A DNA stretch of 30,607 bases, taken from positions 1-30,607 of the IMG/VR virus record IMGVR_UViG_3300006875_000093; one strand, given 5' to 3'. The translations under genes were made by a program, and so were the position numbers. Under the pieces are notes generated by a model. That model had not been told where the DNA came from. It ran no database searches and saw nothing but the letters and a program-made list of their open reading frames with translations. The stretch's first letter is position 1. Each line of letters starts with the position of its first letter. Of this stretch, positions 1-30,574 are shown one piece after another. The stretch is from a virus.

Positions 1-21
1 CACCTTACTTCAGTTAATACC

Positions 22-66
22 TTTCTCCCGTTTTAGTTTGACTAAATAGACGATAAACGGGAGAAA
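22..66 (+). promoter_or_regulatory. 12-bp perfect hairpin enclosing a late promoter-like motif and covering an RBS
   Basis: The left arm TTTCTCCCGTTT (22-33) is the exact reverse complement of AAACGGGAGAAA (55-66), leaving a 21-nt loop (34-54). The right arm contains GGGAG (59-63), the Shine-Dalgarno for the ATG at 69. The loop contains ACTAAATA (41-48). RNA entering from upstream would fold and hide the ribosome binding site. RNA starting from the loop motif would begin near position 54 and lack the left arm. There is no T-run after the stem, so it does not look like an intrinsic terminator. The fold is seen in the sequence; its role is inferred. Confidence 0.65.
41..48 (+). promoter_or_regulatory. 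T4-type late promoter-like motif (ACTAAATA)
   Basis: This is a one-box match to the T4 late promoter family (consensus TATAAATA at about -10), which is read by the gp55 sigma factor with the gp45 clamp. The expected start is about 6 nt downstream, near 54, giving a roughly 15-nt leader with GGGAG before the ATG at 69. It lies just before a long run of co-directional structural genes, as expected for a late operon. Such short AT-rich motifs also arise by chance. Confidence 0.5.
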
Positions 67-68
67 CC

Positions 69-401
69 ATGGCAGATTTTGTTGAACTCACATTAGAAAA
101 AGGCGCTACGTTTAGTAGTCAAATCACAGTTAAAGATGACCAGGGCATCGAACAAGATTTAACTGGATACACAGCACGTTCGCAGATGCGTAAATCGTAC
201 TATGCGAATTCAAAATACGATTTTACTGTTACTGTTACTGCACCATCAATTGGTTTAATTACCATGGCGATGACTGCTGCAAATACTTCTAACATATCTC
301 CTGGTCGTTATGTGTATGACGTTGAAATAGAAAATAACTCTGGTGATGTTACAAGAATATTTGAAGGGATCGTAACCGTTCTACCGAATGTTACCAGATA
401 A
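69..401 (+). CDS. Small beta-sandwich virion structural protein
   Basis: This 110-residue protein has alternating hydrophobic and polar strands throughout and no signal peptide or membrane segment. It opens with an ELTLEKGATF-type strand and closes with GRYVYDVEI, a GDVTRIFEG strand and a VTVLPN ending. That pattern (an input value, an LTGYTARSQMRK strand, then a YDVEI strand) is familiar from small beta-sandwich proteins coded beside tail-fibre genes in phages, which are usually annotated only as structural. A Shine-Dalgarno GGGAG lies 5 nt before the ATG. It is the first gene after the late-promoter-like motif and abuts the next gene with no gap. A role in attaching or decorating fibres is inferred from position only. 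Confidence 0.8.
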   Translation: MADFVELTLEKGATFSSQITVKDDQGIEQDLTGYTARSQMRKSYYANSKYDFTVTVTAPSIGLITMAMTAANTSNISPGRYVYDVEIENNSGDVTRIFEGIVTVLPNVTR

Positions 402-3131: not shown

Positions 3132-3470
3132 ATGGCAAGTAATATCCCACTAAATTCGTTTAAAACTGTAATAACAAACATAACAAATTCTGCTAATACT
3201 GTATATACGGCTCCTCCTGGAGTTACTACTGTAGTTCTATTAGCACAAGTTTCTAATATTGACACTTCAACAGTTACCGTAACAGCAGCACATCGTCGTG
3301 GTGCGAACAATACTCGTTTGATTGCAAACGTAAAGATTCCTATTCAGGATGCTGGTAGCTTGTTGACTGGTAAACTTGTTTTAGAATCTGGAGATGGTTT
3401 CTCTATCCAAGCAGATAGAATAAATGCTGCTGAATTAACATTGTCAATACTAGAAACTGCTAATGCGTAA
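3132..3470 (+). CDS. ~110-residue beta-rich structural protein, copy 1 of 3
   Basis: This 112-residue protein has an RBS GGAAGG at 3121-3126, inside the end of the preceding fibre gene. It shares a pattern with the 110-residue proteins at 19235 and 22326: VYT-P near residue 22, a V-N strand about 20 residues later, a central strand with I/D, L-L-GD near residue 85 and a hydrophobic C-terminal strand. The three copies are well diverged. All three directly follow a fibre gene ending in a PFxL or NILML-type tail and directly precede another fibre or adhesin gene. The protein is probably a single beta-sandwich virion component, perhaps a connector between fibre parts. The function is inferred from context only. 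Confidence 0.75.
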   Translation: MASNIPLNSFKTVITNITNSANTVYTAPPGVTTVVLLAQVSNIDTSTVTVTAAHRRGANNTRLIANVKIPIQDAGSLLTGKLVLESGDGFSIQADRINAAELTLSILETANA

Positions 3471-6400
3471 TAAACAGATACTATTAAGTGGTAGAGCAGT
3501 AACAACAAATGCCGCAAGTGTACCGGCAGATCGTTACTCATTTCTACATCTTAGTGATGCAGAACCTAACCTAGGTACAGCAAGTGCCAACGGTTGGGTA
3601 TTAGTCTATGATACTTCAACACCAGGGAATCGTCTTTGGTCTAAGAATCTTATCACGGCATATGACCATGCTAACTCTGCATACGGTTCGCAAAACACTA
3701 CAGGTGTTTATGCTAACGCTGCGTTCCTACAAGCAAACTCTGCATACGGTTCACAAAACGTAACTGGTACATATGCGAACAATGCATACTTGCACGCTAA
3801 CTCTGCATATGGTTCACAGAATACAACAGGTACGTATGCTAATGCTGCGTTTCTAAAAGCTAACTCTGCGTATGCAAGTCAGAACACAACAGGTACGTAT
3901 GCTAATGCTGCATATGCACAAGCAAACTCAGCCTCTTTATATGCTAACGGTGCATTTGTTCAAGCGAATGCTGCATATGGTTCACAGAATACAACTGGCA
4001 CATATGCTAATTCCGCTTTCGTAAAAGCCAATAGTGCGTATGCGTCACAAAATGTAACAGGCACTTATGCGAACAATGCATACGATCAAGCGAATTCAGC
4101 AGCAGCTTATGCTAATTCTGCTTTCTTAAAAGCAAATTCCGCATATGATTCACAAAACACAACAGGTGTTTATGCAAACTCTGCTTTCTTAAAAGCAAAC
4201 GCTGCGTATGATTCACAAAACACAACAGGTGTCTATGCTAACGCTGCATATGCACAAGCAAATTCTGCATCGTTATATGCGAATGGTGCTTTTGTACAAG
4301 CTAATGCTGCGTATGATTCACAAAATACAACGGGTGTCTACGCAAACTCAGCATTTCTAAAAGCGAATAGTGCATACGCACAAGCAAACTCTGCAAGTCT
4401 CTATGCAAACGGTGCATTTGTTCAGGCTAACTCTGCGTATGATTCACAAAATACAACGGGTGTCTACGCAAACTCAGCATTCCTAAAAGCAAATTCTGCG
4501 TATGCACAAGCAAACTCTGCATCGTTATATGCGAATGGTGCTTTCATTGAAGCAAACTCGGCATACGATTCTCAAAACACTACAGGTGTTTATGCTAATG
4601 CTGCATACGCACAAGCAAATTCTGCAAGTCTCTATGCAAACGGTGCTTTCATTGAAGCAAATTCTGCATATGAAAGTCAAAACACAACTGGTGTCTATGC
4701 TAACGCTGCATATGCACAAGCGAACTCTGCGTCCTTGTATGCCAACGGTGCGTTTATTCAAGCGAATGCTGCATACGGTTCACAGAACACAACTGGTGTC
4801 TATGCTAACGCTGCGTATGCACAAGCGAATTCAGCATCCTTGTATGCAAATGGTGCTTTCGTTCAGGCAAATGCTGCATTTATAAAAGCAAACTCTGCAT
4901 ACGAATCACAGAATACAACTGGCGAATATGCCAACGCAGCATTCTTAAAAGCAAATTCTGCATATGCAAGTCAGAATGTAACTGGAACTTATGCGAACAA
5001 TGCTTATGTACGTGCAAACAATTCACTTAATGCAAATACTGGTGGTTTAATTACTGGTAATGTTACTATTCAAGGTAACTTGTCTATTACTGGTAACATA
5101 TATGCACTCGGAAATACTTTCTTTGTAGATGCTGGAACACTTGTTGCAAGTGATACGTTATTAGTTTTAGGTATAAACAACTACACTACTGACATTTTAG
5201 ATATTGGTTTTGCAGGTCACTATAACAATGGAACTAATGCACATACTGGTCTAATACGTGATGCTGGAACAAAAGAATGGCATCTGTTCAAAGAATACAC
5301 ACCAGACATTGCTGCAAATAATAACATTAATGTTGATGATCCATCGTTTGTAATTGACACACTTAATGCAAATCTACATTCTGAATATGTTCGAGTTCGT
5401 GGTGTTGAGATTGGATACTATGCAAACGCATCATTCCTACAAGCAAATACTGCGTATGCATCACAAAACGTAACAGGTACTTATGCAAACAACGCATACG
5501 ATCAAGCAAACTCTGCTGCATTGTATGCTAACTCTGCGTTTGTAGAAGCAAACTCTGCATACGCAAGTCAAAATACAACTGGCGTTTATGCTAATGCTGC
5601 GTATGCACAAGCGAACTCTGCATCTCTGTATGCGAATGGTGCATTTGTTCAAGCGAATGCTGCATTTATTAAGGCAAACGCTGCATACGCAAGTCAGAAT
5701 GTAACAGGAACATATGCGAACAATGCATACCTACATGCAAACTCCGGTTTCATTCATGCTAATGCTGCATTTGAAACGATAAACAATTTTTCAGTAGTTG
5801 CTAATACTACTAATACAACTGTAATTGCAGTCAACGATCATGCAAACGCAGCATTCCTAAAAGCAAACGCTGCATACGCAAGTCAAAACACAACTGGTGT
5901 TTATGCTAACGCTGCATACGATCAAGCAAACTCTGCTGCGATATATGCCAACGGTGCTTTCATTGCTGCAAATACGGCAGACAGTAAAGCGGTTAGTGCA
6001 GGACTTTATGCGAACGGCGCATTTGTTCAAGCCAATGCTGCATATGACCAAGCAAACTCTGCTGCCTTATATGCGAATGGTGCTTTTGTACAATCTAATG
6101 CTGCGTTCCTAAAAGCGAACTCTGCGTATGCAAGTCAGAACGTAACTGGTGTATATGCAAATAGTTCATATTCACAAGCAAATTCTGCTGCACTTTATGC
6201 TAACGGTGCGTTCATACAAGCGAATGCTGCATATGAAGTTGCAAATTCTGCTGCACAGTCTCCATATGCAAACGCAGCATTCTTAAAAGCAAACGCTGCA
6301 TATGCACAAGCAAACTCTGCAAGTCTTTACGCCAATGGTGCTTTTGTACAATCTAACGCTGCATACGATCAAGCAAACTCTGCTGCGATATATGCTAACG

Positions 6401-8568
6401 GTGCGTTCATACAAGCCAACGCTGTATTTGATGTCGCAAACTCGGCAGCACTTTATGCTAACGGTGCATTTGTACAATCAAATGCTGCATACAGTTCACA
6501 GAATACTACTGGCGTTTATGCAAATGCTGCTTATAGTCAGGCAAACTCTGCTGCGTTGTATGCGAATGGTTCGTTCGTACAATCAAACGCTGCATTTGAT
6601 GTTGCGAATTCTGCTGCCTTATATGCCAACGGTTCTTTCGTACAAGCAAATGCTGCGTATGGTTCACAAAATGTAACAGGTACATATGCCAATGCTGCGT
6701 TTGCTCATGCGAATGCTGCATTTAATGTTGCAAACAATTCTATTGACACGTATGTTCGTGCTCATGCAAATGCATCATACAATACTGCAAACGCAGCATT
6801 TGCTAAGGCAAACGCAGCAGTATTCACTATTACTGCAAACTCGTATGAGATTTATACGAACACATCAACTGGAAACATACAAATCGGTCTTGCAAATGTA
6901 AACGCAAGTATCGGTACGTTTGGTGGTGCTACTGCAATTCCAGTTATTAATGTTGATGGTTACGGTCGTGTACAGTCAGTTTCTAACACCACGATTTCTG
7001 TTCCTCCTGGGACATATATTTTCCCGAACACCGATCAACTTACAACAAATTCAAATTTCGGTAACGTAAGAATTGGATTGGCTAATGTTAATTTTAACAT
7101 TGGTACATATGGTGGTTCATCCGTTATTCCAACAATTACAACCGACGGTTATGGTCGTGTTATTAGTATCGCTAACACAACTGTTAGTATACCATCAGGG
7201 ACGAATATTGTCAATAGCAGTTTCATTACTGCCAACTCTCCAACTGGTAATGTTGCATTATCTTTGGCAACTTCGGGTGTAACTTCAGGAACATATGGTG
7301 GATCAACTGTTCTTCCTGTATTTACCGTAGATGAGTATGGTCGTGTAACAAGTGCATCTAATACTGCGGCAACCGTTGCGTTGGCTGCATTGGGTACGAT
7401 TATTAGAAATTCGTATACCGCAACTGCTGCACAAACCGCATTTAATACTACAACATCATTCATAGAAGGATATGCTGATGTTTATGTAAACGGAATTAAG
7501 TTAAGTCCTGCTGATTATACAGCTAATCCAGCTGGAAGCATTAACATATTAAATCCGACACTACTAGATGGTGACGTAGTTGATATTCAAACTGCAACGA
7601 CATATGTTGTCGATGCAAATACAAGATATGAAAAAGTTACATTTACTGCGACAGCAGGACAAACATCATTCGCTACAGTCTATACTCCAGGTAATGTAAA
7701 CGTATATCTAAACGGTTTACGTTTAAAAGAAACTAATGACTTTGTTGCACTTGATGGGACATCTGTAACATTAACAGTTGCATGTGAAGTAAGTGATATA
7801 GTTGAGGTTGAAAAAATAGGTACATTGTATACCTACCTCGATAACTTATATCTCGCAACAAGATACGCAACAACAGCAGTATCAAATGGTCAGACTACAT
7901 TTACTGTAACTGGTGGATACAAGATTGGTTTTGTTGATGTATACTTAAACGGTATTAAACTAAACATTCCAGCTGACGTACTTGCAAGTGATGGTTCAAC
8001 TATCGTAATGCAATCAGCAATTGTTGAAACTGGTGACATCATTGAAGTTATTGGTATTGGTCCAGAGTTCACTCCTGCTAATGCAGTATCAATACGTGGT
8101 GGTACAATTTATGGTTCGTTGAATGTTTGGAACAATGTATCAGTTAATAACGCAATCACAACTAACACATTATTTGTAACTTCAAATGTGGTAGCAAATG
8201 CAGTCAATGTTGCAACCGTTTACTTCAACGACGGTACGCAAATGATTACTGCTGCGTCTGGTTCAGGCACAGGAATAACTTGGAAGATAATTAGTGCAAA
8301 CACTACTGCAAATACGACAGAAGGTTTCCTTGTAGATACAACTACTGCAAATGTTTATATTACTTTAAATTCATCTCCTAGTCTTGGAAATACTGCTCGC
8401 ATTGTAGACATGGCAGGAAACTTTGCGATAAATAACTGTATCATCAAAGGAAATGGCAACAAGGTTATGGGAAGTACAAGTGATCTAGTCATTTCATCAA
8501 ATAACGCTGGCATCGGTCTAGTGTACAGTAATGCAACTTACGGTTGGAGAATAATTGAGAACCCATAA
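3463..8568 (+). CDS. Giant tail fibre shaft protein with heptad arrays
   Basis: At 1701 residues this is the longest protein here. The start overlaps the previous gene by 8 bp. In order: an N-terminal fibre module (1-66); a heptad array (70-524) of 65 uninterrupted seven-residue units such as ANSAYGS, QNTTGVY and ANGAFVQ; a beta insert (527-651); a second array (654-1122); three GTYGG...DxYGRVxS repeats (about 1130-1300); three QTTF-type modules with a VDVYLNGIKL core (about 1310-1535); and a C-terminal module of about 100 residues ending in YGWRIIENP. That last module resembles a common terminal domain of T4-like fibres. The arrays suggest a long trimeric shaft, either coiled coil or an unusual Ala/Asn-rich fold. 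The protein is probably the main shaft of a long or side fibre. Receptor binding would be at the C-terminal end or in a partner protein. Confidence 0.8.
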   Translation: MRNKQILLSGRAVTTNAASVPADRYSFLHLSDAEPNLGTASANGWVLVYDTSTPGNRLWSKNLITAYDHANSAYGSQNTTGVYANAAFLQANSAYGSQNVTGTYANNAYLHANSAYGSQNTTGTYANAAFLKANSAYASQNTTGTYANAAYAQANSASLYANGAFVQANAAYGSQNTTGTYANSAFVKANSAYASQNVTGTYANNAYDQANSAAAYANSAFLKANSAYDSQNTTGVYANSAFLKANAAYDSQNTTGVYANAAYAQANSASLYANGAFVQANAAYDSQNTTGVYANSAFLKANSAYAQANSASLYANGAFVQANSAYDSQNTTGVYANSAFLKANSAYAQANSASLYANGAFIEANSAYDSQNTTGVYANAAYAQANSASLYANGAFIEANSAYESQNTTGVYANAAYAQANSASLYANGAFIQANAAYGSQNTTGVYANAAYAQANSASLYANGAFVQANAAFIKANSAYESQNTTGEYANAAFLKANSAYASQNVTGTYANNAYVRANNSLNANTGGLITGNVTIQGNLSITGNIYALGNTFFVDAGTLVASDTLLVLGINNYTTDILDIGFAGHYNNGTNAHTGLIRDAGTKEWHLFKEYTPDIAANNNINVDDPSFVIDTLNANLHSEYVRVRGVEIGYYANASFLQANTAYASQNVTGTYANNAYDQANSAALYANSAFVEANSAYASQNTTGVYANAAYAQANSASLYANGAFVQANAAFIKANAAYASQNVTGTYANNAYLHANSGFIHANAAFETINNFSVVANTTNTTVIAVNDHANAAFLKANAAYASQNTTGVYANAAYDQANSAAIYANGAFIAANTADSKAVSAGLYANGAFVQANAAYDQANSAALYANGAFVQSNAAFLKANSAYASQNVTGVYANSSYSQANSAALYANGAFIQANAAYEVANSAAQSPYANAAFLKANAAYAQANSASLYANGAFVQSNAAYDQANSAAIYANGAFIQANAVFDVANSAALYANGAFVQSNAAYSSQNTTGVYANAAYSQANSAALYANGSFVQSNAAFDVANSAALYANGSFVQANAAYGSQNVTGTYANAAFAHANAAFNVANNSIDTYVRAHANASYNTANAAFAKANAAVFTITANSYEIYTNTSTGNIQIGLANVNASIGTFGGATAIPVINVDGYGRVQSVSNTTISVPPGTYIFPNTDQLTTNSNFGNVRIGLANVNFNIGTYGGSSVIPTITTDGYGRVISIANTTVSIPSGTNIVNSSFITANSPTGNVALSLATSGVTSGTYGGSTVLPVFTVDEYGRVTSASNTAATVALAALGTIIRNSYTATAAQTAFNTTTSFIEGYADVYVNGIKLSPADYTANPAGSINILNPTLLDGDVVDIQTATTYVVDANTRYEKVTFTATAGQTSFATVYTPGNVNVYLNGLRLKETNDFVALDGTSVTLTVACEVSDIVEVEKIGTLYTYLDNLYLATRYATTAVSNGQTTFTVTGGYKIGFVDVYLNGIKLNIPADVLASDGSTIVMQSAIVETGDIIEVIGIGPEFTPANAVSIRGGTIYGSLNVWNNVSVNNAITTNTLFVTSNVVANAVNVATVYFNDGTQMITAASGSGTGITWKIISANTTANTTEGFLVDTTTANVYITLNSSPSLGNTARIVDMAGNFAINNCIIKGNGNKVMGSTSDLVISSNNAGIGLVYSNATYGWRIIENP
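3670..5034 (+). repeat. 21-bp (7-residue) coding repeat array 1, 65 units
   Basis: Units begin with codons for Ala/Gln-Asn. The first unit starts at 3670 and the 65th at 5014, a distance of exactly 64 x 21 bp, so no unit is longer or shorter. The third residue is usually Ser, Ala, Gly or Thr, the fourth usually Ala or Thr, the fifth often Tyr, Phe or Ala. Synonymous codons vary widely between units, so the protein repeat is stricter than the DNA repeat. Confidence 0.9.
4307..4481 (+). repeat. Recent 126-bp (six-unit) duplication in the heptad array
   Basis: The 49 bases at 4307-4355 recur exactly at 4433-4481, 126 bp downstream, which is six 21-bp units. Identity this long stands out because most neighbouring units differ at synonymous positions. 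This suggests a recent in-frame expansion of the shaft by unequal recombination or slippage. Confidence 0.7.
5422..6828 (+). repeat. 21-bp (7-residue) coding repeat array 2, 66 units with two offsets
   Basis: Forty heptads run from 5422 to 6261. A two-residue Pro-Tyr insert (6262-6267) is followed by 23 more heptads (6268-6750), a five-residue unit YVRAH (6751-6765) and three heptads. The +2 and -2 offsets cancel, so the array is 1407 bp, exactly 67 x 21. A non-repeat stretch around 5779-5841 (INNFSVV, ANTTNTT, VIAVNDH) also keeps the seven-residue register. Confidence 0.85.
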
Positions 8569-11500
8569 TGGCTGATTTAAGAGACTATACAAAAAATAAT
8601 CAAATATTTGCTGGAACAGATGGTATCAGATTACCATCAGGTAACAGCGCACAAAGAGTTGCATCAGCAAATGTTGCGGGTACTATGCGTTACAATACCG
8701 ACATTGCTGGTATGGAATTATACACTCCAACTGGATGGCTTCCTATTGCAGCACCTCCAAGTATAGCTACAGTATCTCCTTCAACATATAGTGGTGCATC
8801 TGGAACAGAATTTACTATTAATGGATCGAATTTTACTTCCGATGCACAAGTTTATTTTGTAACATCTAACGGTACAGCAATTTTAGCTTCAACTGTAACT
8901 TATTATAGTTCAGTACAAGTTCGTGCAACAACACCTCGTGCAATTAAAGTTGAAGAAGAACCAATTAGTGTTCGTGTTGTTCAGCAATCTGGTACTGTAA
9001 CAAAACTAGATTGTATTGATGCAGGTGGTGTACCAAACTGGATTACTACGGCAGGAACACTTGGAAGTATCTTTGGTGCAAATACAGTTAATGTATATGT
9101 GTCTGCGACAGATCCAGAAGGTACTGCAATAACATATCAAATATCATCAGGTTCATTACCAGGTGGTTTAAACTTCTCTACAGCAAACGGATTGATTCAA
9201 GGTGTTGCAAATTCAGTCTTAGCAAACACAACGTACAACTTTACAATTAAAGCAAACGATACAGTAAACAATAATACTGATAGAACATTCAGTTATACTG
9301 TATTGAATCGAGCTCCAGTAATTAATACTGCGGCAGGAAGTCTAGGAACAATCTATTCTGGAAATGCAGCTTCGGCATCAATCTCTGCTTACGATCCAGA
9401 CGGTGGAAGTTTAACATATACTGTTTCTTCTGGAACATTACCAGTTAATAGTTCGTTAGGAAGTGCAAACGGTGTCATTACTGGAACACCTGTTGTTGTA
9501 ACTACGAATACAACATATAGTTTCACTATCACAAGTACCGATCAAGGTAGTTTAACTGCATCAAATAATTACACTTATACTGTATTAAATCGTCCACCAT
9601 TATGGAATACGAATCCAACATTAACATCATATAGTGCAGAAACATTCACACCGATTACTGTTAATGCATATGATCCTGATGGTGGAAGTATAACTTATTC
9701 ATTGTCATCTGGATCTGTTCCAAGTGGTTTATCGTTTGTTACTGCTAATGCGACTATTACTGGAACACCTGCTGAAGTTACAGATAATACAACAAGTACA
9801 TTTGCTGTTACTGCTACTGACCCTGGAGCAGATGCTAACGTAAGAACATTTAGTTTAACAATTACTCCAATTATTGATGCACAGTTTTCTAACACAATGT
9901 TATTAATACATGGTAGTGCGAATACTGTAATTAAAGATGAATCATCAAATAGTTTACCATTAATTGTTGTTGCTGATGCACGAGGAAGTAATTTTAGTCC
10001 ATTTAATACTTCTTGGGGTAATTACTTTGATGGATCTAGTTATATAACTGCACCTAATAATACTGCATTACAATTAAGCACAAGCGTTAGTTGGTGTTTA
10101 GAAGCTTGGATATATCCAACTTCACTTTCCAATACTGATAACGGATTGATGGCTAAACGTATAACCGGAAGTGTAGAATGGCAATTCGCAATAAAAGGTA
10201 CTGGTGTAGCTACCTATAATAGTCAGCTTTACATATACAACGGTACTACCACTTATTATAGTGGAACAACTATACCTGGATTAAATGTTTGGACGCATGT
10301 TGCTGCAACATGGGATGGCACAACATTACGATTTTTTATAAACGGTGTTTTGTGTTCTACTACAACTACTTCTTTTTCTTTGCCAGCTTCAAGCACTAAT
10401 ACCGTAGGTATTGGAGCAAACGGTAATACGGAAGGATTTACTGGTTACATTAGTAATGCTCGTATTGTTAAAGGAAGTGCTGTATACACTTCATCCTTTA
10501 CACCAAGTACAACACCTTTAACAGCAATAACAAACACATCATTACTTACATGTCAAAATAATACATTTAAAGATAATAGTACAGCAAATTCTGGAACAGG
10601 ATTTGGTATTACTCAAAGTGGATCACCACAAGTAGTAGGTTTTAGTCCATTTACAGAAACAGATACATCAACAGGTTCAATCTTTTTTGATGGAACTGGT
10701 GATTATATAAGTGGTCTACCGAGTAATATATTAGACTTTACTTCAAGTGAAGAATTTTCTATCGAATTCTTTGCTTACTTTAATAGTGTACCAAGTAGTT
10801 TTGGTATGTTGGGACTTAATGCTGGTATTCAACAGGGTTATGCTATTGTTTATGGAACTGCTTCTGGATACCTATTGTCTGGTAAAACAGATGAAGTTGG
10901 TTCAGGATCTTTATTGTCAACTGGTTCAGGAGGAACTTTATATCCATACAGATGGTATCACATTTGTTTTGCAAGACGTTCTGGTGTAATGTCAATTTAT
11001 TTGGATGGTATACGTCTTGCAACTAGAAGTAGTGACACAACAACATATGCTAGTGGAGCAGCTACAATTGGTTATGCGGGACAAGCATCTGCAACTGCAA
11101 TGACTGGTTATATGAGTAACATAAGAATTCTAACCGGTTCAAGTGCATACGATACTTCACAAACAACACTTACTGTTCCAACGGCACCGGTATCAAATGT
11201 TGCAAATACAAGATTATTAACTTTTCAGAATCGTCAACCACATAACAATCATGGAATAATTGATAATTCACGCAATAAATTAATGATTACAAGGAATGGT
11301 AATGTATCACAAGGTACATTTACACCATTTAGTGCTGACCCTGGAAAGTGGAGTGTTTTCTTTAATGGAAGTAGTGGAGTAAGATTTGCAGACAACGCTG
11401 CATTTCAATTTGGAACAAGTGCATTTACGGTAGAAGGTTGGTTTAATGTTTCTACAATGCCATCAAATGATGCATCTATTATTTCAAAATGGGTAGTTGC

Positions 11501-13238
11501 AAATGATGGTAACAGTTCTTGGATGGTAGATTTTCAATCAAGTAATCTAAGTGCAGCAATTTCAATTGGTGGTACTGTAACTAGAATTTCAGGAGCGGGT
11601 GGGGTTCCTTTGGGTGTTTGGAACCACTTCGCTTTAGTTCGTTCAGGATCACCTGGGACGTTATCATTGTTTATGAATGGTGCAAGAATTGCTACAGGAA
11701 CACCAACAGGTTCTTTAGTTGATGATTCAAATCCAGTTGGATTAGGTGTTCGTGGTGGTACTGATGGTCAATATTTAACTGGTTCATTATCAAATATTCG
11801 TGTAATTAATGGTACTGCACTTTATGATCCAACATTAACAACATATACTGTTCCAACATCCACATTAGGAGTTGTAACAAATACCAAATTATTGACATGT
11901 CAAAACAATCAATTTATTGATAATTCGACTGCAAACTCAAGTGCAGGATTTACTGCAACTGCTTTAAGTACACCATTTGTAAGACCGTTTTCTCCGTTTG
12001 CTCCAAACACGGTTTATACTACTGCAAATACCGGAGGTGGAGTATACTTTGATGGTACAGGAGATTATTTACTAACACCATCAGTATCGAATCTTGCGTT
12101 TAGAACTGGTCCATTTACCATGGAAGCTTGGCATTATGGTACAACAACAAGTGGTGGTGGTCAGTTAGTAAGTTCAAGAACTGGATCAATTAATGATGCA
12201 TCCACAATATCATTTTATATAACTGGTGGTAATTATTCATTCTACGGTAATGGTAATCACGTTTCAGCTGCTTATGTTACAGGACAATGGAATCACGTAG
12301 TCTATACAAGAGATGCATCCAGCACTTTGAGATTATTCATTAATGGAAAACTAGCAGCGTATGAAGCTTCATATACTCCGGATATTACTAAAACACAAGT
12401 TGGAATTGGATCATTACAAAGTGGTGGTGAGATAATACCTGCTTGTTGGGCTAGTGATGTTCGCCTAATAACTGGATCGATTCCTACGTCATATCAAACA
12501 TCTAGCACTACAGTTGGTACTCAAGTGTTTACCCCACCTACTGCACCATTAACAGTAACATCTCAAGGTGCTTTGGCAAATGCAGTTACCATGTTGTTAA
12601 ACTTTACTGATGCTGCAATCATAGATTCAAGTGCAAAAAATATATTTGAAACTTCTGGTGATGCAAAATCAAATAACACTATAAGTAAGTTTAATGGTGG
12701 TTCAGCTTATCTTGACGGTAATGCAGATTATTTAATTTTACCGGCAACGGCAGCATCTCCTCTTGGAACTGTTAATTTTACTTGGGAATGTTGGATTTAT
12801 AGAAATGCAGTAACAGATTCAACTTATGCAGATGGATTATGTTGTTCATCTGCTGGTATTACTGGTTTTGGTGCTGGTATTGATCCTAGTGGGTATATTG
12901 GATATGCTATATCAGCAACATCTGGTTCATGGGATATTAGATTAGGTGTTGACCCAGGAAACCCTAAAGGTTCTATTGCAGTTCCATTAAGAACATGGAC
13001 ACACGTTGCATTGGTAAGAAATGGTAGTACGTTTACTGGTTATGTTAATGGACAAGTAGATCAAACATTTACTAGTGCATCTGCAATAAGTAATTTAGGA
13101 AACTCGTATTATATTGGTCGTTGGCATGATGCAAATACACGTTACTTTAATGGACATATACAAGAGTTCCGTATAACAAGATCGGCACGTTATACAACAA
13201 CATTTACACCACCGACTAGATCATTCCCTAATAGATAA
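8568..13238 (+). CDS. Multidomain adhesin: TIG + three PIG-like + five LamG-like domains
   Basis: This 1556-residue protein has its ATG overlapping the previous stop by one base. Residues 1-60 carry the junction motif (IRLPSGNSAQR, MRYNTDIAGMELY, a GWLPI strand). Residues about 63-145 are a TIG/IPT-type Ig fold (VSPSTYSG, FTINGSNFTSDAQV). Residues about 155-436 are three PIG/cadherin-like repeats, each with DP(E/D)G followed by YxxSSGxLPxGL and an ITGTP-like turn. From 437 on there are five concanavalin/LamG-like domains, starting near 437, 658, 880, 1105 and 1338. Each has YFDG-like, EAW/EGW/ECW (F in the second) and W-H-V...FINGxL signatures. LamG-like folds commonly bind glycans. This is probably a distal, surface-binding fibre. 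The same TIG+PIG start is found in the gene at 17172. Confidence 0.82.
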   Translation: MADLRDYTKNNQIFAGTDGIRLPSGNSAQRVASANVAGTMRYNTDIAGMELYTPTGWLPIAAPPSIATVSPSTYSGASGTEFTINGSNFTSDAQVYFVTSNGTAILASTVTYYSSVQVRATTPRAIKVEEEPISVRVVQQSGTVTKLDCIDAGGVPNWITTAGTLGSIFGANTVNVYVSATDPEGTAITYQISSGSLPGGLNFSTANGLIQGVANSVLANTTYNFTIKANDTVNNNTDRTFSYTVLNRAPVINTAAGSLGTIYSGNAASASISAYDPDGGSLTYTVSSGTLPVNSSLGSANGVITGTPVVVTTNTTYSFTITSTDQGSLTASNNYTYTVLNRPPLWNTNPTLTSYSAETFTPITVNAYDPDGGSITYSLSSGSVPSGLSFVTANATITGTPAEVTDNTTSTFAVTATDPGADANVRTFSLTITPIIDAQFSNTMLLIHGSANTVIKDESSNSLPLIVVADARGSNFSPFNTSWGNYFDGSSYITAPNNTALQLSTSVSWCLEAWIYPTSLSNTDNGLMAKRITGSVEWQFAIKGTGVATYNSQLYIYNGTTTYYSGTTIPGLNVWTHVAATWDGTTLRFFINGVLCSTTTTSFSLPASSTNTVGIGANGNTEGFTGYISNARIVKGSAVYTSSFTPSTTPLTAITNTSLLTCQNNTFKDNSTANSGTGFGITQSGSPQVVGFSPFTETDTSTGSIFFDGTGDYISGLPSNILDFTSSEEFSIEFFAYFNSVPSSFGMLGLNAGIQQGYAIVYGTASGYLLSGKTDEVGSGSLLSTGSGGTLYPYRWYHICFARRSGVMSIYLDGIRLATRSSDTTTYASGAATIGYAGQASATAMTGYMSNIRILTGSSAYDTSQTTLTVPTAPVSNVANTRLLTFQNRQPHNNHGIIDNSRNKLMITRNGNVSQGTFTPFSADPGKWSVFFNGSSGVRFADNAAFQFGTSAFTVEGWFNVSTMPSNDASIISKWVVANDGNSSWMVDFQSSNLSAAISIGGTVTRISGAGGVPLGVWNHFALVRSGSPGTLSLFMNGARIATGTPTGSLVDDSNPVGLGVRGGTDGQYLTGSLSNIRVINGTALYDPTLTTYTVPTSTLGVVTNTKLLTCQNNQFIDNSTANSSAGFTATALSTPFVRPFSPFAPNTVYTTANTGGGVYFDGTGDYLLTPSVSNLAFRTGPFTMEAWHYGTTTSGGGQLVSSRTGSINDASTISFYITGGNYSFYGNGNHVSAAYVTGQWNHVVYTRDASSTLRLFINGKLAAYEASYTPDITKTQVGIGSLQSGGEIIPACWASDVRLITGSIPTSYQTSSTTVGTQVFTPPTAPLTVTSQGALANAVTMLLNFTDAAIIDSSAKNIFETSGDAKSNNTISKFNGGSAYLDGNADYLILPATAASPLGTVNFTWECWIYRNAVTDSTYADGLCCSSAGITGFGAGIDPSGYIGYAISATSGSWDIRLGVDPGNPKGSIAVPLRTWTHVALVRNGSTFTGYVNGQVDQTFTSASAISNLGNSYYIGRWHDANTRYFNGHIQEFRITRSARYTTTFTPPTRSFPNR

Positions 13239-27938: not shown

Positions 27939-28892
27939 ATGGCACATCCAAAAACAAGAACACAATTTAAAGAATATTGCCTTCGTCAGTTAGGGTTTCC
28001 TGTTATCGACATCAACGTAGATGACGATCAGGTAGAAGATCGTATCGATGAAGCACTAGAGTATTGGAATGATTACCACTTTGATGGTACTGAAAAATCA
28101 TACTTCAAACATCGAATACAACAAGCAGACATTGATCGTGGATGGATTTACTGTCCAGATTCAGTTATATTTGTAACTGGTGTTCTACCGTTTGATGAAT
28201 CTAATTCGTCAATCAATATGTTTGACTTACGTTACCAACTACGTTTACATGATCTCTATGATTTCACATCGGTATCGTATGTGTCATATGAAATCACAAT
28301 GCAACACCTTCGTACATTGAATCTATTATTCTCTGGTACACCACAGTTCAGATTCAATCGTCATCACAATAAACTATACTTAGATATTGACTGGACAAGA
28401 GATTTAGATGTTGGTCAGTATGTTGTTATGGAATGTTACCGTAGAGTTGAACCAGAAGTTATTACATTGACTGGTACTGTAACTGGTAACACAACCTCAA
28501 ATACAATCATTGGTACAAGCACAAAGTTTGACCAAGAGGTAATGGAAAAAGATTTTATTAACATTGGTGATGAATCAAGACAAGTAATGAAAATTATTTC
28601 TCCTACTGAATTGATTACTACTGGTCCACATGGTTCTAATACATCTGGAATGACTGTTACTATTGAAGGTAACTCAGATGTTTGGAATGATCGTTTTCTA
28701 AAAGAATATGCTACCGCATTGATTAAACGTCAATGGGGTAACAACCTTAAAAAGTTTGGTGGAATTCAAATGCCAGGTGGTGTTACACTAAATGGTAAAG
28801 AAATTTATGATGAAGCAATACAAGAAATTAAAGACATGCAGGAACAGATGCACTCACTCAATATCCTCCCTGGCGATATGTTCATAGGATAA
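27939..28892 (+). CDS. 13: Neck protein gp13 (T4-like head-tail connector)
   Basis: This 317-residue protein is close to the 309 of T4 gp13. Landmarks are TRTQFKEYCLRQLGFPVIDI, a DDQVEDRIDEALEYWNDYHFDG helix, FRFNRHHNKLYLDIDW, DRFLKEYATALIKRQWGNNL and MPGGVTLNGKEI. These match the gp13 of T4-like phages as I know it. gp13 seals the filled head and, with gp14, forms the neck to which the tail attaches. Residues about 175-245 (TLTGTVTGNTTSNTIIGTST and following, to MTVTIEG) look like an inserted small beta domain, since the flanks (ECYRRVEPE and DVWNDRFLKEY) are adjacent in the relatives I recall. The gene order 13-14-15 supports the call. Confidence 0.92.
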   Translation: MAHPKTRTQFKEYCLRQLGFPVIDINVDDDQVEDRIDEALEYWNDYHFDGTEKSYFKHRIQQADIDRGWIYCPDSVIFVTGVLPFDESNSSINMFDLRYQLRLHDLYDFTSVSYVSYEITMQHLRTLNLLFSGTPQFRFNRHHNKLYLDIDWTRDLDVGQYVVMECYRRVEPEVITLTGTVTGNTTSNTIIGTSTKFDQEVMEKDFINIGDESRQVMKIISPTELITTGPHGSNTSGMTVTIEGNSDVWNDRFLKEYATALIKRQWGNNLKKFGGIQMPGGVTLNGKEIYDEAIQEIKDMQEQMHSLNILPGDMFIG

Positions 28893-28898
28893 TGATGA

Positions 28899-29810
28899 AT
28901 GTCAACAAACTTCTACTTCAATAATTTTCCCAAAGATCACATAACTCAAGAGCAGTTGCTCATTGAGGATCTAGTCATAGAGGCTATGCAAATCTATGGC
29001 ATGGACGTCTTTTATCTTCCAAGAACCAGTCGAGATAAAGTAGATACAATCTACGGTGAGGACACATTAAAACAATATATTAATGCATACCCGATTGAAA
29101 TGTATCTTGAGAATGTTACAGGTATGGATGGTGAACAAGATTTTATGTCCAAGTTTGGTCTTGAGATTCGTGATGAATTATCTTTACTTGTTTCTCGCCG
29201 TAGATTTAAATACTCAACAGGTGCATCTAATCTAATTAGACCACGTGAAGGTGATCTAGTTTATATTCCACTAATGCAGAATTTCTTTGAGATTACATTC
29301 GTGGAACATGAAAACGATCAGGCAATGTTCTATACGTTAGGACGTGGACGTGGTGGTAATGTTTATGTGTATGCATTAAAACTTAAACAGTTCGTATTCT
29401 CAGATGAGATTATAGAAACTGGAGTTACAGAAGTTGATGAACAAGTGTTTGATTTGTATAGAAGAACACATATTCCATATGCTGAAACTGGTAACAATAT
29501 TAGATACAGATTAACTGAAATTGTTTATCAAGGTCCTGATCTTGCAAACGCAACTGCACAAGGTATAGTTCATTCTGTTAATACTACAGGTAATAACTAT
29601 TTGGAACTTGTTCGTGTTCAAGGAAACTTTGCAAACGGAACTATTATAATTGGTGAAACAAGTAATGCACGTTATCAAATGATTGGAACTATAGACGACA
29701 TGACACCATTTGATACACAAACAGAAGATTTGATTGATAACAATGCTATTGAGTTTGAATCAGATGATATCATTGATTTTACTGAAGTTAATCCATTTGG
29801 TGAACCATAA
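28899..29810 (+). CDS. 14: Neck protein gp14 (T4-like)
   Basis: This 303-residue protein is longer than the 256 of T4 gp14. The start at 28899 is the first ATG in frame (earlier ATGs at 28892 and 28895 are in other frames), with AGGA at 28886-28889. Landmarks are EDLVIEAMQIYGMDVFYLPR, then an IYGED turn, MSKFGLEIRDELSLLVSRRR, LIRPREGDLVYIPL and EITFVEHE. It forms the neck with gp13. Residues about 207-267 (an NATAQGIVHSVNTTGNNYLE segment, NFANGTIIIGETS, MIGTIDD) look like an inserted strand-rich domain, which may account for most of the extra length. It precedes gp15 with a one-base overlap. Confidence 0.92.
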   Translation: MSTNFYFNNFPKDHITQEQLLIEDLVIEAMQIYGMDVFYLPRTSRDKVDTIYGEDTLKQYINAYPIEMYLENVTGMDGEQDFMSKFGLEIRDELSLLVSRRRFKYSTGASNLIRPREGDLVYIPLMQNFFEITFVEHENDQAMFYTLGRGRGGNVYVYALKLKQFVFSDEIIETGVTEVDEQVFDLYRRTHIPYAETGNNIRYRLTEIVYQGPDLANATAQGIVHSVNTTGNNYLELVRVQGNFANGTIIIGETSNARYQMIGTIDDMTPFDTQTEDLIDNNAIEFESDDIIDFTEVNPFGEP

Positions 29811-30574
29811 TGTTAGGTAACGCACACTTTTATAATCGTACTATTCGCAAAATTGTTATTGCGATGGGTACAGTTTTAAACGACATTCAATTAGTAAGAT
29901 ATACTAAAGATGGTCTGACTGCAAAAGAAAAGTTTAAAGTACCTTTGTCATATGGTGCAAAAGAAAAATATATTGTCCGTATTAATTCAGATCCAACACT
30001 AACAAAATCAGTTAATGTTGTTGTACCACGTATTTCATTTGAACTTACTGGTATGAGTTACGATTCTTCTCGTAAACAACAAACAACATTAATGAATTGT
30101 TCTACTGATACTAATACATCTTCAAAGACACAATATCTTCCAGTACCTTATGATTTTACGTTTGATGCTGCAATTTATGTACGTAATACAGAAGATGGTA
30201 CACAAATACTAGAACAGATTCTACCTTTCTTTACACCAGACTTTACTGTAACTGCAAAATTAATACCTGACTTAAATCGTTCATACGATTTACCTATTAT
30301 TTTAAATTCAGTTTCAAATGAAGTAGATTATGAAGGTGACTTTATGACTACTCGTTTAATTATTTGGAACTTGTCATTTACAATAAAAGGTTACATATTC
30401 CCAGGAGTAAAAGATTCCAAGATTATTCGTGGTGCAAATACAAGTATTATTGACTCTGCAAATTCATCACAAGTTTATGTGAATATTAATACACAAACCG
30501 ATCCTGCAAACGCTGCTCCTGATGATGAGTTTGGATTTGCAGAAATTATAACTGAGGCTCCAGATGCATCATGA
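29810..30574 (+). CDS. 15: Proximal tail sheath stabiliser / tail terminator gp15 (T4-like)
   Basis: This 254-residue protein is a little shorter than the 272 of T4 gp15. The N-terminus (FYNRTIRKIVIAMGTVLNDI) is the family hallmark. RYTKDG, a KVPLSYGAKEKYIVRI segment, PRISFELTGMSYD and VPYDFTFDAAIYVRNTEDGT follow, all typical. gp15 caps the completed tail and sheath and binds the neck. The start overlaps the gp14 stop (TAATG). The C-terminal tail after residue about 215 is rich in Asn, Ser and Asp and probably flexible. The stop overlaps the next ATG (ATGA). Confidence 0.93.
   Translation: MLGNAHFYNRTIRKIVIAMGTVLNDIQLVRYTKDGLTAKEKFKVPLSYGAKEKYIVRINSDPTLTKSVNVVVPRISFELTGMSYDSSRKQQTTLMNCSTDTNTSSKTQYLPVPYDFTFDAAIYVRNTEDGTQILEQILPFFTPDFTVTAKLIPDLNRSYDLPIILNSVSNEVDYEGDFMTTRLIIWNLSFTIKGYIFPGVKDSKIIRGANTSIIDSANSSQVYVNINTQTDPANAAPDDEFGFAEIITEAPDAS

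Follow-up and report, generated by a model that had tools for sequence, protein, structure and literature searches.

Why should a T4-type late promoter lie in the loop of an RNA hairpin that would hide the ribosome binding site (RBS) of the next gene, at the head of a tail-fibre operon? This question is raised by the first 68 nucleotides of the window, i.e. the whole 30,607-nt stretch of viral DNA analysed here. An inverted-repeat search of the window revealed a perfect 12-bp stem formed by TTTCTCCCGTTT and AAACGGGAGAAA, enclosing a 21-nt loop (Table 1). The loop carries ACTAAATA, and the right arm includes GGGAG (59-63), the Shine-Dalgarno sequence of the ATG at position 69. An earlier note on this DNA had placed stem, loop motif, GGGAG and ATG exactly there. 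No other perfect inverted repeat of at least 12 bp and with a 3-40-nt loop occurs in the window, and shuffled windows contain a mean of 0.05 such repeats. When the 68-nt leader itself was shuffled, 3 of 20,000 sequences reached a 12-bp stem, which places the stem above chance. The isolated hairpin has a folding energy of -19.5 kcal/mol (z = -6.05), with 12 + 5 pairs predicted on either side of an internal loop. With its 21-nt loop and no T run past position 66, it is not an intrinsic terminator. A search with a strict stem pattern gave a match in the window's own contig only, and the matches to a looser pattern were mostly due to chance. One apparent relative (L002) was dropped because it turned out to be the window's own contig (0 differences).

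Table 1. Features at the start of the window (positions are those of the window).
Feature	Position	Strand	Remark
TAA stop of the upstream gene (co-directional, 1273 aa, Gly-rich)	15..17	+	ORF 1860-5681 of L027
Left arm (anti-Shine-Dalgarno arm)	22..33	+	predicted late RNA lacks this arm
T4-type late promoter motif ACTAAATA (-13 to -6)	41..48	+	
Predicted late transcription start	54..54	+	placed by T4 spacing
Right arm, with Shine-Dalgarno GGGAG (59-63)	55..66	+	
LtfC-like gene (110 aa) of the L-shaped tail fibre protein assembly family; first gene of the fibre operon	69..401	+	

The gene at 69 is related to phrog_1084 (E 7.5e-29) and phrog_3304 (E 4.8e-21), matches Pfam PF23926 (LtfC) below the cut-off, and has homologues in Kyanoviridae phages. 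It is followed by fibre genes and then by neck and sheath-stabiliser genes, with homologues of gp13, gp14 and gp15 at 27939-30574. The window belongs to a 39.3-kb contig (it starts at position 5665 of L027, with 0 differences), in which terminase and sheath genes come after these homologues. The T4-like virion homologues and the gene order are those of a Kyanoviridae-like, i.e. marine or freshwater T4-like, phage. The long fibre genes (window 3463-13238, and others) are rich in short repeats that are related to one another and built around GCNGCNTTTGC / AATGCTGCATTTGC; these repeats occur on both strands and also match distant parts of G001, a 169.8-kb relative. A 982-aa fragment of the Gly-rich upstream gene gave no match among PHROGs. 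Judged from gene content, this gene sits in a cluster of virion structural genes; in G001, baseplate and fibre genes with their own late promoters are located upstream of its counterpart. No credible intrinsic terminator was found between the Gly-rich gene and the promoter of the window. Since the upstream gene lies in a structural cluster and such a terminator was not found, any read-through RNA crossing the leader would most likely be late RNA.

From its sequence, ACTAAATA is a credible late promoter. It matches (A/G)CTAAATA, the late consensus of Aeromonas phage Aeh1 (PMC2988020). In G001, 15 of 29 ATAAATA and 8 of 19 CTAAATA motifs are followed by an ORF start within 80 nt, where about 5% would be expected, and the genes preceded by such motifs include structural genes. 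The 17-mer ACTAAATAGACGATAAA (41-57) is also found, identical, ahead of another gene of the same contig, which follows the large terminase and which by T4 gene order would encode the tail sheath. GTTTGACTAAATAG alone was too frequent among the IMG/VR matches listed to be informative. Late promoters of this phage group seem to have a consensus that continues beyond the TATA-like box on its downstream side (TAAATAGACGATAAA), and the extended block (window 41-57; L028 near 18707) is common to unrelated genes and to 54 IMG/VR stretches. If T4 spacing is assumed, RNA started near 54 would have a 15-nt leader. The exact position matters little, as any start from 36 to 58 keeps the RBS open, with a computed opening cost of 2.5-3.5 kcal/mol.

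The energy required to open the start region (-15 to +3), or opening cost, was computed for the read-through RNA and for the late RNA, with shuffles of all sequence upstream of the late start as the control from which p was obtained. It amounts to 12.7 versus 2.6 kcal/mol for the window (p 0.007), and to 15.0 versus 2.6 kcal/mol (p 0.013) for L171, the single close independent relative. Among T4 genes, the positives e, 49, segB and I-TevII gave 13.2-17.3 versus 0.4-5.7 kcal/mol (p <= 0.02); soc, a known example, was missed by this test (7.6 versus 6.5 kcal/mol), and genes 9, 15 and 18 had a low opening cost. In G001, 2 of 17 late-promoter genes stand out in opening cost, the LtfC-like gene most strongly, and most of its late-promoter genes are without such a stem. 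A second predicted stem masking both RBS and AUG, with CATAAATA in its loop, is present in G001 (L018-L026) at 53883-53922, before a gp48-like tube-cap gene (53920; 11.7 versus 2.6 kcal/mol, p 0.007). This candidate was set aside, since the genes upstream are divergent and relatives gave no clear sign of compensatory changes. With such neighbours, read-through at that locus would be antisense RNA.

To follow the leader among relatives, protein and DNA searches were combined and yielded 76 distinct leaders of the LtfC-like gene among the matches listed (for IMG/VR, 80 of 366 relatives). The late promoter motif is present in 74 of them, and in 14 the start site is masked by sequence upstream of the predicted late start (p <= 0.017). 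Without the two leaders that were found by the stem pattern, 12 of 72 are masked where about 1 is expected. None of 11 tail-sheath leaders with the identical 17-nt promoter is masked, nor is any of three other leaders with the same 17-mer. The masked leaders, at whose loci the upstream gene is co-directional, use several unrelated stems (CTCCCG/CGGGAG, CTCCTG/CAGGAG, CTCCCAGTTTGA/TCAAATTGGGAG, AACTCCT/AGGAGTT), and CCCCTTAT/ATAAGGGG is a weaker candidate among the relatives. Several of the relatives' stems are only 9-10 bp long. In 13 alignable stems, whose composite arms were compared with the loci themselves, 5 of the 12 pairs have changed on both sides; the covariation score is higher than in any of 500 shuffles and breaks down once the partners are shifted relative to each other. 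The compensatory changes that the earlier note had proposed to look for in related genomes are indeed found, in recurrent stems altered on both sides of their pairs. When upstream halves were swapped among 15 leaders, masking dropped, and each leader's own half performed better (0 of 20,000 permutations). The stem rows used for covariation and the swap set were both picked for pairing; the unbiased evidence for recurrence is the 12 of 72 together with the sheath-leader control. On the protein tree the hairpin trait requires at least 7 changes, 5 of them forced by supported branches, and has thus been gained or lost several times. The exact stem of the window is shared with one independent close relative only, L171, in which one inner pair is lost and one outer pair gained. 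The unchanged left arm of L171 was rejected as a sign of conservation, in view of a four-fold divergence of about 10%. A scan of genome contigs gave one distant match.

The LtfC family shows two further peculiarities at its start sites. In 10 of the 76 distinct leaders ATC or ATT seems to be the start codon of the gene (L049:5401, L195:739, L197:1501, L275:289, L285:437, L292:1501, L298:1501, L305:1317, L308:269 and L311:300), preceded by a good Shine-Dalgarno sequence; an in-frame stop lies shortly upstream, with no standard start in the interval. ATG is the start in just 23 of 76. Initiation of translation may be a step at which genes of this family are generally held down. Moreover, L172-L182 and HTVC008M (L202) have another short hairpin right after TAAATA (CCACATTAA/TTAATGTGG; CCATAA/TTATGG), whose loop contains the Shine-Dalgarno sequence and whose stem contains the start codon (p 0.05-0.17, not significant alone).

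An intrinsic terminator is located between the upstream stop and the promoter in 28 leaders, including L195-L197, L272-L278 and L280-L289, and many leaders have neither hairpin nor terminator. The difference between read-through and late opening cost has a median of 2.0 kcal/mol in the terminator leaders versus 6.1 kcal/mol (p 0.0015, uncorrected for kinship), and a tree-corrected test of terminator against hairpin had too few independent pairs. Mutual exclusion of the two devices is a tendency only, and both are apparently present in L317 and L328. The proteins encoded by L278 and L279 are identical, and so are their leaders after the promoter; L278 has a terminator and no stem, L279 a 14-bp stem and no terminator that we could see. 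Some relatives have kept the gene and lost the stem, which the earlier note regarded as speaking against its proposal, yet a terminator or a different stem is often present in these leaders. The terminators occupy the same slot as the hairpin, between upstream stop and late promoter, and like the hairpin they would keep upstream transcription from expressing the LtfC-like gene. Unlike the hairpin, they act on transcription, through a GC stem and U run upstream of the promoter, and leave the RBS uninvolved. Their presence at the same place in many relatives points to insulation from the upstream gene.

We consider it probable that the leader is a promoter-dependent translational insulator of the fibre operon against upstream read-through. 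RNA running on from the upstream structural gene would carry both arms and form the stable hairpin; the Shine-Dalgarno sequence would be hidden, and the LtfC-like gene poorly translated from such RNA. RNA begun at the promoter in the loop, near 54, would be without the left arm and its GGGAG would be free. The fibre operon's first gene would thus be translated essentially from its own late promoter only, and the hairpin would be the translational counterpart of the intrinsic terminator found in many relatives. This reading is built on the sequence features, computed energetics, recurrence, positive and negative controls and co-variation obtained here, from which we infer the transcription start, the existence of read-through RNA, its repression and the purpose of the arrangement.

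The hairpin could alternatively be an early/late timing switch like that of T4 gene e, with early or middle RNA silenced until the late promoter fires. The architecture is the same as that of T4 e and I-TevI, where this role is established (PMC3014915, PMC2988022). However, the upstream genes encode baseplate and fibre proteins and have their own late promoters, the nearest neighbour being the Gly-rich gene of that structural cluster, and relatives have terminators at the same place; we hold this alternative to be rather unlikely. Of the earlier note's proposal, the masking logic stands, as in our models it matches the T4 positives quantitatively and recurs in relatives. Its suggestion that fibres are timed to the late phase by silencing of early RNA finds no support, since the read-through RNA would itself be late and terminators take this place in relatives. 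Insulation is the purpose most consistent with the neighbourhood, over early/late timing.

Translational coupling has a still smaller chance of being correct. A ribosome terminating at 15-17 would cover the start of the left arm and open the hairpin, making the output of the LtfC-like gene proportional to that of the upstream gene. The left arm indeed starts 5 nt past the upstream stop, within reach of a terminating ribosome, and in L183-L193 the upstream arm is inside the upstream coding region. However, the distance from stop to arm varies among hairpin leaders from about 4 to 36 nt, and is larger in some, and terminators as the alternative device would abolish coupling. It is very improbable that the hairpin in read-through RNA is instead a substrate for cleavage, for example by RNase III, that frees the RBS through a 5' end near 54. 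The predicted fold of 12 + 5 pairs around an internal loop would suit such an enzyme, and primer extension hardly distinguishes processed ends from late starts (PMC2988020), but the promoter motif of the loop is nearly universal in relatives, with or without a stem, and several of the stems have just 9-10 bp.

A DNA operator, in which inverted half-sites flanking the promoter bind a repressor, is scarcely plausible. The half-sites are about three helical turns apart, and I-TevI represses its own late promoter via an overlapping operator (PMC2988022); yet TTTCTCCCG has a single further occurrence in the examined contigs, in the terminase gene of the contig that contains the window, and the arms change among relatives with RNA complementarity kept. 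A search for a repeated half-site outside coding sequence gave none. A functionless chance repeat, which would suit an exact form common to the window and L171 only and the scarcity of such stems before late-promoter genes of G001, is equally hard to credit for a stem that recurs at the same gene with co-variation, with clean controls and the shuffling result given above.

More broadly, T4-like phages may repeatedly and independently have evolved a promoter-in-loop RBS hairpin at one fibre-assembly gene, interchangeable with an intrinsic terminator, that would insulate the host-recognition operon from an upstream neighbour that is probably often exchanged. We put this forward tentatively, at slightly less than even chances. 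In the open-access literature we found no earlier report of a promoter-in-loop hairpin at a fibre gene. The leaders provide a natural series of gains, losses and exchanges between terminator and hairpin, including a phage pair with identical protein. A test for RBS masking around late promoters can reveal regulation that promoter or terminator prediction misses.

Among known systems, a hairpin that covers AAGGA and the AUG, with TATAAATA in its loop, is found in the leader of the homologous gene in the Methylophilales phages Melnitz-1 and Melnitz-2. Its stem sequence is unrelated to that of the window and its statistic is weaker (p 0.10); the promoter passages of the Melnitz paper (PMC9004378) do not mention this hairpin. 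In the T4 e-type arrangement, the RBS is paired in a hairpin whose 5' strand or loop contains the late promoter, so that the long RNA is masked and the late RNA is open (PMC3014915, PMC2988022). This group includes e (lysozyme), soc, 49, I-TevI/II/III and segB, and of Aeh1 mobE. The window leader has the same computed energetics as e, 49, segB and I-TevII. In its long RNA the Shine-Dalgarno sequence is paired in a stable predicted helix, the 12-bp stem running through GGGAG, and RNA from the predicted start would lose the 5' strand of this helix. By analogy, the masking mechanism would be the T4 one. Unlike in T4, where the long RNAs are early or middle, the genes upstream in the window belong to a structural cluster and appear to be late, the gene concerned serves fibre assembly, and many relatives have a terminator instead of the device. 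The classical T4 circuit, known for a handful of genes, would thus be extended to aquatic phages, mostly uncultivated, and there to the first gene of a tail-fibre operon, with a different purpose, namely to keep one late operon independent of its late neighbour.
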